Source: Salinibacterium sp. G-O1
Lineage (GTDB): Bacteria; Actinomycetota; Actinomycetes; Actinomycetales; Microbacteriaceae
Length of the DNA: 64,000 nt
Direction: 5' to 3'
Assembly: GCF_030063305.1 (NCBI RefSeq)
Contig: NZ_JASISV010000003.1
Span: forward strand, 62,001-126,000
Shown: piece by piece, positions 8,677 through 44,035 of the stretch
Numbering within the stretch: position 1 is the first letter of the stretch
Layout: the number at the start of each line of letters is the position of its first letter
Program-made: the position numbers and the translations under genes
Notes under the pieces: model-generated
What the model was told of the DNA's origin: nothing
What the model saw: the letters and a program-made list of their open reading frames with translations, nothing else
Database searches by the model: none

Positions 8677-8737
8677 ATCCATAGTGCAATTGCTGTCGTT
8701 ATGACCTGGTCATAGCGGCATTACGCGCACTATCGAT
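8677..8737. repeat. 61-bp intergenic palindromic element, family A, copy 2
   Basis: Shares the first 12 bases (ATCCATAGTGCA) with copy 1 and the last bases (GCGCACTATCGAT) with copy 3. The centre is a near-perfect hairpin, TATGACC-T-GGTCATA. It lies 25 bp before the DUF559 gene start, on the other side of that gene from copy 3. Confidence 0.8.
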
Positions 8738-8762
8738 TGCCGTCGCGCATAACTGGGGATGG

Positions 8763-9719
8763 ATGTCGCGGCAGAAGCCGCACCTCGGCCACACTCGCCG
8801 CATGCGACCTCCGTCCGACCTGCCGATGGAACTCGGCCATCACTTCTCCTGCGATGCCGCCGTCAGCGTCGGAGTCTCACGCCGACGTCTCAGGGGCGGC
8901 GACCTCGATTCTCGATTCCGGGGTTCGCGCTCAGTGCCGGTTGCGACGCGGCACACCGACGAATTCGCGCGGCTGCACCACGCACTGGTGCAACGATGCC
9001 TCGCGTTCATCCCCGTGGCGCCAGCCGAATTTTGTTTCAGCCACGGCACGGCCGCCACGCTGTACGGGATACCGCTGCCTCTGCGACTCCGACGCGACCT
9101 GCGAATCGACGTGAGTGTGCCGGTGGCTCGGCCCCAGCCCCGAGCATCCGGGGTACGCGGTCACCGGCTCAACCTGTGGGAGGTGCGCGTTTTTCGCGGC
9201 ATGCCGCTTGTTGCACCAGCTGTCGCGTGGGCGCAGGTCGCGAATGTGCTGACCCTGGACGAACTCGTGATTGCTGGCGATTATCTCGTGCAACGCAAGC
9301 ATCCGAAGTCCTCCCCGGACGATCTCGTCGCGGCGGCGAGCGTACCGAGGCGAGGCGCACGGCAGGCGCGACGAGCGCTGCTGGATGTGCGCGTTGGCAC
9401 CGATTCGCCTCCCGAATCCGAGCTGCGCCTCGTACTGGTGCGCGCGGGACTGCCCGAACCGCTGATCGGCCACACGGTCATCCACGAGGGATATTTCGTG
9501 GGAACCCCCGATCTGGCCTATGTCGAGCAGAAGGTCGCGATCGAGTACCAGGGCAGCGGCCACTGGCTGGATCGTGACGTCTTCGAGGACGACATCATCC
9601 GTCGGGAGCTGTTCGAGCGTGCCGGCTGGAAGGTCATCCTCGTCACGGCGCCGAGACTGCGGCAGCCGGCGCAGTTGGCGGCAGAGGTCGCCGCGGTCCT
9701 GCGCGAGCGAGCGGTGTGA
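8763..9719 (+). CDS. DUF559/VSR-like endonuclease-domain protein with AbiEi-like N-terminal half
   Basis: 318 residues. The N-terminal two-thirds contain a winged-helix-like start and SHGTAATLYGIPLP, resembling AbiEi-type antitoxin/regulator proteins. The C-terminal 100 residues carry a PD-(D/E)xK-like layout typical of DUF559: PESELRLVL (Glu), GTPDLAYVEQKVAIEYQG (Asp and Glu), then the HW / RRELFERAGWKVI helix. Such proteins are common in actinobacteria and their function is not established. An alternative start is ATG 8802. No partner toxin is next to it. The gene is bracketed by two copies of the 61-bp palindrome, ending 25 bp before and starting 23 bp after it. Confidence 0.7.
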   Translation: MSRQKPHLGHTRRMRPPSDLPMELGHHFSCDAAVSVGVSRRRLRGGDLDSRFRGSRSVPVATRHTDEFARLHHALVQRCLAFIPVAPAEFCFSHGTAATLYGIPLPLRLRRDLRIDVSVPVARPQPRASGVRGHRLNLWEVRVFRGMPLVAPAVAWAQVANVLTLDELVIAGDYLVQRKHPKSSPDDLVAAASVPRRGARQARRALLDVRVGTDSPPESELRLVLVRAGLPEPLIGHTVIHEGYFVGTPDLAYVEQKVAIEYQGSGHWLDRDVFEDDIIRRELFERAGWKVILVTAPRLRQPAQLAAEVAAVLRERAV

Positions 9720-9742
9720 CGGTCTCGAGCGAGCCCGAACCG

Positions 9743-9803
9743 ATCGAGTGTGCAGTTGTGGTCGCTTGGCGCGAGCAATAGCGACAACAAGTGCGCTATC
9801 GAT
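9743..9803. repeat. 61-bp intergenic palindromic element, family A, copy 3
   Basis: The left arm ATCGAGTGTGCAGTTGTGG pairs with a right arm that ends GTGCGCTATCGAT; 19 of 24 outer positions are complementary. It starts 23 bp after the DUF559 stop. Confidence 0.8.
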
Positions 9804-21274: not shown

Positions 21275-21416
21275 GCCCCTCGCGCGCGTGGCGGCCCACG
21301 GTGCGGCACGCGGTGCGGCGGCACGCGCGGCGGCGCCGGGTCGCGGTGCGGCTCGCGCGGCGCCGTGGTGCGGCGCGAGCCCGGCGGTGCCCGCGAGCGC
21401 CCGGGTCGGGCATCCA

Positions 21417-21497
21417 CCCAAATGAAGGAGATTTCCGTTGGGAGTGCCGGTTTGCCAGGCAGAAGTGCCTGCATCCGCGATATCTCCTTCATTTGGG
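21417..21497. repeat. Palindromic element, family B, copy 1 (loop type 1)
   Basis: The left arm CCCAAATGAAGGAGATTTCC pairs with the right arm CGATATCTCCTTCATTTGGG, with one mismatch in the core. The roughly 40-nt loop (GGGAGTGCCGGTTTGCC...) is almost identical to that of the copy at 21593. The hairpin stem contains AAGGAGAT on one strand and its complement on the other. Confidence 0.85.
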
Positions 21498-21592
21498 GGT
21501 GAGATGGATGCGCCGGGGGAGCACCTCGCCGATGCCAACGGCGGCCCGCCGGGCCCGGGTTCGCCGCGCGAGCGCCCCGGTCCCGGCATCCA

Positions 21593-21673
21593 CCCAAATG
21601 AAGGAGATTTCCGCTGGGAGTGCCGGTTTGCCAGGCAGAAGTGCCTGCATCCGCAAAATCTCCTTCATTTGGG
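21593..21673. repeat. Palindromic element, family B, copy 2 (loop type 1)
   Basis: The same 81-bp length and nearly the same sequence as the copy at 21417, including the GGCATCCA flank before the left arm. The arms pair perfectly over CCCAAATGAAGGAGATTT. The 95-bp DNA between the two copies is not repeated. Confidence 0.85.
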
Positions 21674-21739
21674 GTGAGGGATGTGACGAATCGGCGGCAG
21701 CGCTGTGATCTGGCAGACTTATCCGGCACGCATGTGTGG

Positions 21740-21835: not shown

Positions 21836-21893
21836 CGAGATCGCCACTTTTGCTGCCTCCGACGCGGCTGACCCAGCAGAAGTGGCGATCTCG
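21836..21893. repeat. Single-copy palindrome between tRNA-Gln and glmU
   Basis: Arms CGAGATCGCCACTTTTGCTG and CAGCAGAAGTGGCGATCTCG pair at 19 of 20 positions around an 18-nt loop. It lies 24 bp after the tRNA. No T-tract follows on either strand, so it is more likely a palindromic element than a terminator, though it could act as a 3' processing barrier. Confidence 0.7.
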
Positions 21894-36289: not shown

Positions 36290-36345
36290 CCGCGGGCGGC
36301 GCGCCCCGTCGCCCGGCCCTCGGCGGCCCCCGTCGCGCGCTCCCT

Positions 36346-36430
36346 CATCCAAATGAAGGAGATTTCCAACTTTGCGTTCGTTTTGTGGGCCACTGCGGGG
36401 GTTCGCGGCGAAATCTCCTTCATTTGGATG
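36346..36430. repeat. Palindromic element, family B, copy 3 (loop type 2)
   Basis: Perfect 21-bp arms, from CATCCAAATGAAGGAG inward, around a 43-nt loop. The flank GCGCGCTCC and the loop pattern CAAC...GGGGGTT...GGC are shared with the copy at 36641, not with the copies at 21417 and 21593. Confidence 0.88.
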
Positions 36431-36484
36431 GGAAAGCCGCGCCTCGCCCCGCCGGGCCAGGCCGCGGCTCACCCACCCCGTGTT

Positions 36485-36576
36485 GATAACTCCTGCAGAA
36501 TGCGGGGCCTGGGCCTCCGCGCTCCCGGAAACCTGGGGATGCGGCGGCCAGCCTGCCGCGATCTGCAGGAGTTATC
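36485..36576. repeat. Palindrome between two family B copies
   Basis: Perfect 15-bp arms GATAACTCCTGCAGA and TCTGCAGGAGTTATC around a 62-nt GC-rich loop. The architecture is like family B, but the arms are unrelated. Confidence 0.75.
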
Positions 36577-36640
36577 GCCACCCGGGCGCTGCGAGGGAGT
36601 CAGCCGCAGGAGTCCCGCCCGCAGCCCCGCCGCGCGCTCC

Positions 36641-36729
36641 CTCATCCAAATGAAGGAGATTTCCAACCTCGCGCCCGATTTGCGAGCCAATGTGGGGGTC
36701 TGGGGCAAAATCTCCTTCATTTGGATGAG
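36641..36729. repeat. Palindromic element, family B, copy 4 (loop type 2)
   Basis: Perfect 22-bp arms beginning CTCATCCAAATGAAGGAG. From CATCC to GGATG it is 85 bp, the same as copy 3. The loop resembles copy 3 in most positions. Confidence 0.88.
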
Positions 36730-36735
36730 GGAGCC

Positions 36736-43845: not shown

Positions 43846-43917
43846 CACGCGGAAGCTTCTGAGTGGCCGCGCGTCACCCGTAGCCCACGCGGTGCGCGGT
43901 GTGCGGTGCGCCATTTT

Positions 43918-43966
43918 CGGGATGTCAGTTGCGACTGATGTCAGTCTGAACTGACATCCCGTTTTT
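43918..43966. terminator. Palindrome with T-run, likely bidirectional terminator
   Basis: Perfect 13-bp arms CGGGATGTCAGTT and AACTGACATCCCG around an 18-nt loop, followed by TTTTT on the plus strand; ATTTT precedes the left arm. It lies between the convergent folD operon and galK. It may also belong to the palindrome families. Confidence 0.6.
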
Positions 43967-44035
43967 GGGGCGCGGGTCGGGGAGGCGTGGCGAAACTTGG
44001 CGCCCGCGCCCGCGCTCGGCGCGGGATGCCGCGGC

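Follow-up and report, generated by a model that had tools for sequence, protein, structure and literature searches.

Genes for a predicted Vsr/EDxHD-like nuclease are bracketed in many actinobacteria by palindromes of a narrow length range, and such palindromes are also dispersed, as families B and C in the Salinibacterium sp. G-O1 genome and as matches to a generic palindrome model (R1) in many other genomes. The arrangement is probably a REPIN/RAYT-like system that employs an unrelated nuclease, in which a gene is accompanied by two palindromes of its own and, in the G-O1 genome, the same repeat also occurs solo. We lean, if only slightly, towards the broader view that these are a class of mobile palindromic elements, widespread in one actinobacterial class, that would be mobilised in trans by cognate Vsr/EDxHD-like nucleases and co-evolve with them family by family.

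The window, that is the whole 64,000-nucleotide stretch analysed here, is G000:C3:62001-126000 of the G-O1 genome (G000; 3.14 Mb in six contigs). The first-pass annotation had reported a gene in it at 8763-9719 and palindromes at 8677-8737, 9743-9803 and 1674-1734; these coordinates are as claimed and the reading frame is open.

8763-9719, plus strand: nuclease gene A, open reading frame of 318 codons
8677-8737, no strand: family A palindrome 5′ of gene A, a degenerate copy that matches the solo copy at E 6e-4 and is missed by R1
9743-9803, no strand: family A palindrome 3′ of gene A, with a 57-bp core at 9745-9801 (R1 E 1.9e-8; copy in the R1 training set)
1674-1734, no strand: solo family A palindrome 7 kb off, with no adjoining nuclease gene, core 1676-1732 (R1 E 5.5e-4; copy not in the training set)
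21836-21893, no strand: solo family B palindrome of 58 bp, found by repeat search and R1, the cognate nuclease gene (G000:C4:93550-94425) being outside the window

The spacings given earlier, 25 bp between the 5′ palindrome and gene A and 23 bp between gene A and the 3′ palindrome, are also correct for the annotated ATG. Judging by the alignment of homologues, translation may start instead at the ATG at 8802, for which the 5′ spacing is 64 bp. The neighbours of the unit, named by eye from their translations, are an oxidoreductase-like gene and a convergent MOSC-like gene. The dyad symmetry of family A alone is no more than chance: of 21 possible pairs the three copies form 14-16, and 72 distant control windows form 12-16. 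Their single-strand fold z-scores are −1.3 (5′ copy), −3.9 (3′ copy) and −2.6 (solo). As a repeat family they do exceed chance, modestly. The solo copy used as a genome-wide query matches the other two at E 6e-4 (5′) and 0.05, in a search in which a 31-base partial match elsewhere in the genome scores E 0.03, and R1 recovers two of the three copies. The genome contains these three degenerate copies in total, and synteny with the sister genome G017 stops at the solo copy. In the flank test described below, the window locus reaches about the 94th percentile of cross-locus scores and is not among the 48 top loci. It is a degenerate member of the class, and the strong evidence comes from its homologues.

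A protein search of the G-O1 genome returned three further homologues, namely L009, L010 and one broken in two pieces (L011/L012). L010 (G000:C4:93550-94425) lies between two 58-bp family B palindromes and L009 between two of family C. We considered whether L009 is itself broken and rejected this: its match is free of stops, and the single TGA of the extended match lies upstream of the likely start, so that the gene is intact. Family B occupies 15 sites in this genome, two bracketing the nuclease gene and 13 solo, a count that omits two weaker partial matches; for family C a cut-off of E≤0.0013 gives 11 sites, of which two bracket the nuclease gene; two of the other nine are at contig starts. 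Thirteen of the 15 family B copies could be aligned, and they have exact CGAG...CTCG ends and conserved arms around a centre that is variable in sequence and constant in length. Beyond these ends most copies are unrelated in sequence, apart from a slight preference for CRY...RYG. R1 found at least 31 sites at E≤1 in the G-O1 genome (61 strand matches; sites counted by eye, with the best 150 of 2286 candidates scored). The first-pass annotation had reasoned that an element equally common beside unrelated genes would tell against a link with the nuclease. Proximity to unrelated genes is indeed the rule for solo copies, as it is in REPINs, whereas pairs in this genome bracket only nuclease genes: among the listed sites, the three intact nuclease genes alone have palindromes of one family at both ends, each no more than 2 kb away. 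Other close pairs stand about 50-110 bp apart (C1:316034/316151, C1:930648/930815 and C1:1-57/150-207).

Several other repeats were seen in the same genome. L134 and L136 (G000:C1:930648-930704 and C1:930815-930871) are near-identical 57-bp palindromes 110 bp apart, with no nuclease homologue there, which by eye look akin to families A and C. The flanks of the broken fourth homologue (C1:1124561-1125257; L011/L012) carry no recognisable palindromes, and this locus may illustrate decay of a unit. Within the window, a 58-bp palindrome at 43911-43968 has 16 of 21 pairs and by eye is unlike families A-C. The window also contains two pairs of repeats with inverted ends around ATCTCCTTCATTTGG, one of 99 bp (21400-21498 and 21576-21674) and one of 111 bp (36328-36438 and 36625-36735). 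Members of each pair lie close together and are 94% and 85% alike, respectively; they may be a different repeat class. The pair at 36 kb surrounds a further inverted repeat (36480-36581).

Homologues of the nuclease are common. They were found at E≤1e-5 in 37 of 60 genomes, G-O1 included. Among 118 genomes sampled over the class, 90 had a match at E≤1e-10, with at most 20 candidates scored per genome. We compared the 300-bp 5′ and 3′ flanks of each gene by best local alignment and set the scores against those for flanks of different genes. The first sample comprised 74 loci from G-O1 and relatives, of which two with short flanks were removed, leaving 72 that include both pieces of the broken G-O1 gene. 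In this sample 48 of the 72 loci exceeded the 99th percentile of the 5112 cross comparisons, against an expectation of about 0.7 loci. The 5′ and 3′ labels were swapped for 14 of these loci; the within-locus test is independent of the labels, and in the cross comparisons the swap brought homologous outer flanks together, which raised the percentiles. A second sample was drawn from 41 named loci found with family B nuclease relatives in Salinibacterium, Leifsonia, Lacisediminihabitans, Cryobacterium, Agromyces, Plantibacter, Microbacterium, Naasia and other genera; removal of five repeats and two short-flank loci left 34. Against 1122 cross comparisons, 29 of the 34 exceeded the 95th percentile and 15 the 99th, the latter being raised because related families recur in different species. 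A class-wide search gave the third sample, 30 loci minus three reused, a few of the remaining 27 belonging to the window's order or family. Here 22 of 27 exceeded the 95th percentile of 702 cross comparisons and five of 27 the 99th, a percentile that is likely to be raised in the same way. The 5′ and 3′ flanks of one nuclease gene therefore share a palindrome far more often than the flanks of different genes do.

Direct counts of palindromes gave the same picture. We defined a strict palindrome as 54-66 bp long with NGA...TCN ends and at least 15 of 21 pairs, a rule fixed after the first loci had been examined. Within 250-bp windows at the gene, strict palindromes were present in 53 of 106 cases on the 5′ side and 59 of 110 on the 3′ side, against 4/106, 0/106, 4/108 and 0/106 in distant windows, 2/110 inside the gene and 0/216 in shuffled sequence. 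A looser rule, applied to 71 loci, gave no palindrome in the 51.8 kb of gene interior, whereas the near flanks (36.9 kb) had 78 and the outer flanks (184.6 kb) 17. Both sides carried one at 27 of the 71 loci, and at least one side did at 50. By the strict rule, 67 of 110 loci have a palindrome on at least one side and 45 on both. Homologues lacking palindromes, which had been named beforehand as evidence against the association, do exist, since 43 of 110 loci have no strict palindrome on either side, although most tested loci share palindromes. Some of these loci have palindromes with other ends or lengths and others look bare. Three loci, L017 (G023), L154 (Cryobacterium sp. MP_M3) and L161 (Microbacterium suaedae), have more than one same-family palindrome per side of the nuclease gene, and in L037 (G053) the homologue is flanked by a repeated short CGAAGTCTGGGACTTCGGGG-like unit, not a single 57-58 bp dyad.

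The palindromes are nearly fixed in length, 89 of 112 strict ones being 57-58 bp in a search that allowed 54-66. Their arms are alike within a locus and diverge along with the nuclease. In 42 of 45 two-sided loci the closest 5′ and 3′ arms differ at no more than five of 20 positions, the between-locus median being 10, and in 40 of the 45 pairs the two palindromes are of equal length. Mean arm mismatches fall from 10.1 below 35% nuclease identity to 1.6 above 70%, and arm distance is correlated with nuclease identity (Mantel r −0.38, 0/1000 permutations, 2102 pairs, syntenic-site pairs included). For a dyad alignment we took 18 palindromes from 18 loci, L009, L010 and the window locus among them, that had been picked for a length of 56-58 and CGA ends; 90.5% of cells pair, which is itself no evidence because the set was chosen for palindromes. 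In this alignment 110 of 358 cells have changed on both sides, against 39 in shuffles, and a count by eye found eight G-T pairs among about 324 standard pairs. Selection for an RNA hairpin would usually leave more G-T pairs, which argues for a dyad at the level of DNA. In a count by eye of 53 scored loci, the two copies paired best in inverted orientation at 32 and in direct orientation at 21, a choice that near-symmetry makes partly arbitrary.

We next compared genomes with and without the nuclease, a genome being taken as nuclease-free if it had no match to the window protein at E≤1e-5. The same-genus set includes Salinibacterium soli (G024), S. metalliresistens (G003) and a metagenome-assembled Leifsonia sp. 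(G020). The training palindromes for R1 came from 12 of the 60 genomes (seven same-genus, five others); R1 counts are lower bounds and R1 absences cover the best 150 candidates scored per genome. Of 15 nuclease-bearing same-genus genomes, 12 had at least four strand matches, with a best E of 0.00425 or lower, and the other three (G009, G013 and G019) had no R1 match among the best 150 candidates each. None of the 12 nuclease-free genomes had a match at E≤0.05 among the best 150 candidates each; two, G016 and G026, had one match each at E 0.07-0.08, about what chance would give at a limit of 0.1, and the other ten had none. At E≤0.05 the same-genus comparison is thus 12/15 with against 0/12 without the nuclease (Fisher 3.7e-5, for related genomes with kinship ignored), and without the seven training genomes it is 5/8 against 0/12 (0.0036, calculated by hand). 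Among 33 more distant genomes, R1 matched at E≤0.01 in 12 of 22 with and one of 11 without the nuclease. The remaining ten of the 22 had no R1 match among the best 150 candidates each, and the nuclease-free genome G049, from the order-level set, had three weak ones. All 60 genomes combined give 24/37 against 1/23 (2e-6, kinship ignored). A Y1/RAYT-type transposase (PF01797) was found in none of the 27 same-genus genomes, in a search for which five of 14 control genomes were positive, and a RAYT was accordingly rejected as the mobiliser of these palindromes.

Orthologous sites show how the unit comes and goes. The MOSC-like gene is present in nine same-genus genomes and the nuclease unit adjoins it in three (G000, G003 and G004); in G004 the match to the nuclease comes as two separate pieces and the 3′ side of the unit alone was read. 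Five sites are empty (G017, G023, G002, G007 and G015), with neither the nuclease gene nor a palindrome above background, and G022 has another gene at the MOSC-side site. By flank similarity, a homologue also occupies that site in G014 (both sides) and G024 (one side), the former locus (L013) having no clear palindrome pair and the latter (L015) one copy only. In the readable cases at the MOSC site, the gene goes together with its palindromes, both being there or both missing. Empty sites that keep one element, which the first-pass annotation had proposed to look for, were not borne out in the five comparable empty sites. When palindrome loci of the G-O1 genome were compared with selected stretches of G017, four of 20 had usable sequence on both sides. 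At the orthologous G017 sites of three family B solos (L098, L102 and L137) there was no palindrome above background; the fourth locus, L134, was too diverged. As for target-site duplication, direct repeats flanking 24 G-O1 sites showed no clear excess, the mean being 6.8 against 6.2 in cross-site controls. One solo family B copy, L098 (G000:C3:155485-155542), is flanked by a 15-bp direct repeat, and G017 has one copy of most of this repeat. Syntenic nuclease genes mostly share site and orientation, the exceptions being L023/L031, and L038/L076 compared with L009, L029, L049 or L055; this suggests that movement of the whole unit is rare. At one shared site L057 and L060 are 81% identical and L066, L071 and L081 61-66%, with 38-41% between the groups and 79-85% DNA identity in the flanks; the nuclease seems to have been replaced there.

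The earlier 'DUF559-like' label for the gene A protein is fair as a description and weak as a match, Pfam giving MTES_1575 at E 0.0087 and DUF559 at E 0.11, both of which fail the curated cut-offs. Among 30 homologues at E≤0.01, MTES_1575 matches 26, DUF559 17 and AbiEi_4 one, and one PADLOC AbiEi model matches 16. None of the NCBIfam and PADLOC models, the AbiEi models included, matches the window protein itself at E≤0.01. Sixteen residues are invariant in the 30 aligned homologues, including S215, E218, R222, D250, Y262, G264, H267, D277 and R280; of these, E218, D250, H267 and D277 are candidate residues of the EDxHD motif. An AF2 model of the gene A protein (pLDDT 95.3, pTM 0.89) gave nothing at E≤0.001 in Foldseek. 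The top two matches were mitoribosome chains that superpose poorly (TM 0.17 by target). They were followed by the catalytic domain of I-Bth0305I (3r3p_B, E 0.0097, TM 0.66; 3r3p_A, E 0.013, TM 0.70 by target) and, further down, by Vsr (E 0.07, TM 0.44 by target) and TnsA (E 0.1-0.2, TM 0.18, rmsd 14). A profile search of solved structures matched 3r3p at E 1.1e-4, over 59 profile positions near its end, and 3hrl at E 0.0043; in the 3r3p alignment a W stands where the nuclease family has H267. The C-terminal domain of the gene A protein is predicted to be a Vsr/EDxHD-like PD-(D/E)XK nuclease. By sequence, its nearest relative among solved structures is the homing endonuclease I-Bth0305I. The N-terminal part appears AbiEi-like through its homologues and is putatively a winged helix, an assignment that comes from AbiEi matches instead of structural ones. 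According to the excerpts of a review (PMC3943268), I-Bth0305I forms a dimer on a target almost 60 bp long. The agreement of that length with the 57-58 bp dyad suggests that the palindrome is the putative binding site of the enzyme. Phage records held one partial match to the window protein, and plasmid records five matches to the family B nuclease.

We infer that binding and cutting of the palindrome by the nuclease, as a dimer, is what spreads the copies. Each 57-58 bp palindrome has two 20-bp arms, which the enzyme, probably a dimer, would bind, most likely with its AbiEi-like N-terminal part, and the Vsr/EDxHD-like domain would nick or cut the DNA. Cutting would in turn cause palindromes to be copied or captured at new sites, and less often the entire palindrome-gene-palindrome unit; joining of the new copies may rest on host repair, and we know of no joining activity for this nuclease type alone.

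Homing offers a different account of much the same data. The palindrome would be a cleavage target, a cut solo copy would be repaired from the nuclease locus so that the gene ends up between two palindromes, and solo copies would be targets or leftovers instead of products of the enzyme. This would explain why the arms within a locus are alike, as expected from gene conversion, and fits the best sequence match among solved structures, the I-Bth0305I domain with its dimer target near 60 bp (excerpts of PMC3943268). However, it leaves the arrival of solo copies at many unrelated sites unexplained, and homing would leave a palindrome in uninvaded relatives, whereas the five empty sites have none above background; we regard it as unlikely, if the most serious competitor. 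Less probable again is that the palindromes are operators, bound by the AbiEi-like part for regulation of its own gene, with co-divergence arising from that alone and spread from ordinary duplication. The AbiEi matches in 16 of 30 homologues and the position of the 5′ copy, between the upstream gene and the start codon, are what this predicts, but a second copy lies 3′ of the gene, 13 family B and nine family C solos stand elsewhere with sharp ends in the aligned copies, and the conserved residues of the nuclease domain are left without a purpose.

A passenger role, in which nuclease genes have been caught between palindromes that another, so far unrecognised enzyme spreads, seems very improbable to us. 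The nuclease type has no known joining activity of its own, which speaks for such a helper, yet arm sequence follows nuclease sequence, the 12 nuclease-free same-genus genomes have no R1 match at E≤0.05 and no RAYT-type transposase (PF01797) was found in the 27 same-genus genomes. We give almost no credence to transcription terminators or mRNA hairpins: palindromes can fold into hairpins and these do flank genes, but copies lie 5′ as well, no T-run follows the stem in the copies inspected, and changes in the arms are Watson-Crick on both sides with few G-T pairs.

A nuclease that spreads its own palindrome would recall systems that are already described. In REPIN/RAYT systems, as represented in the excerpts of two papers (PMC3116915, PMC3733652), short palindromes are dispersed, the gene is flanked by its own repeat, several families each have their own enzyme and the gene is mostly inherited vertically. 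The units described here likewise have a chromosomal gene flanked by its own dispersed palindrome family, with two inverted arms around a spacer, and the parallel with REPs and RAYTs drawn in the first-pass annotation was the right lead, since flanks share palindromes in most loci tested and, at one site, the whole unit is either there or missing. In contrast to RAYTs, which are HUH tyrosine (Y1) transposases, the enzyme has a predicted Vsr/EDxHD-like nuclease domain, and the strict palindromes are mostly 57-58 bp dyads, many ending in CGA...TCG, instead of the 20-40 bp GTAG (or CGTC) tagged REPs. The highest R1 count was 83 strand matches per genome among the best 150 candidates scored; REP families are often larger. 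The units are set apart from REPIN-RAYT by their different type of repeat and by the search for a Y1 transposase, which found none in the 27 same-genus genomes. With I-Bth0305I, an EDxHD homing endonuclease, the enzyme shares a similar nuclease domain sequence and fold, the target there being nearly 60 bp (excerpts of PMC3943268). Unlike the EDxHD homing endonucleases, however, it was not seen in an intron or intein, its gene does not interrupt a target but has a complete palindrome on either side, and its N-terminal part is AbiEi-like in homologues. The position between complete palindromes and the empty sites without palindromes argue that it is not a classical homing endonuclease. The unit is laid out like REPIN-RAYT, with a predicted nuclease domain related to EDxHD homing endonucleases. 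Vsr and TnsA of Tn7 are weak Foldseek matches of the predicted model (Vsr E 0.07; TnsA E 0.1-0.2); Vsr is a repair enzyme, TnsA works with TnsB, and neither is known to be linked with dispersed palindromes. In an AbiE type IV toxin-antitoxin system the AbiEi antitoxin gene adjoins a gene for an AbiEii toxin; by eye, the neighbours of gene A are the oxidoreductase-like and MOSC-like genes. Unlike a DNA transposon with terminal inverted repeats, the units have no systematic target-site duplication and no fixed inverted orientation of their ends.

Our literature search covered open-access PMC articles, and the titles and opening lines of abstracts that it returned showed no report linking DUF559/MTES_1575 proteins to palindromes or this nuclease type to cognate dispersed repeats. 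As far as that search reaches, the pairing of this nuclease type with dispersed cognate palindromes is new, its mobilising role being putative. Among tiny repeats that an enzyme of the chromosome maintains, REPINs with their RAYTs are the most familiar case. The present data suggest a so far undescribed route by which small repeats spread in bacteria and, if this is true, a second system of REPIN/RAYT shape would have arisen from an unrelated nuclease, and such arrangements would have evolved more than once. The arms, specific to each family and almost constant in length, are, moreover, a natural library for studying how such nucleases choose their DNA. If the proposal holds, it would also give a role to a large uncharacterised nuclease family, present at E≤1e-10 in 90 of 118 genomes of the class, and an explanation for a set of actinobacterial palindromes.
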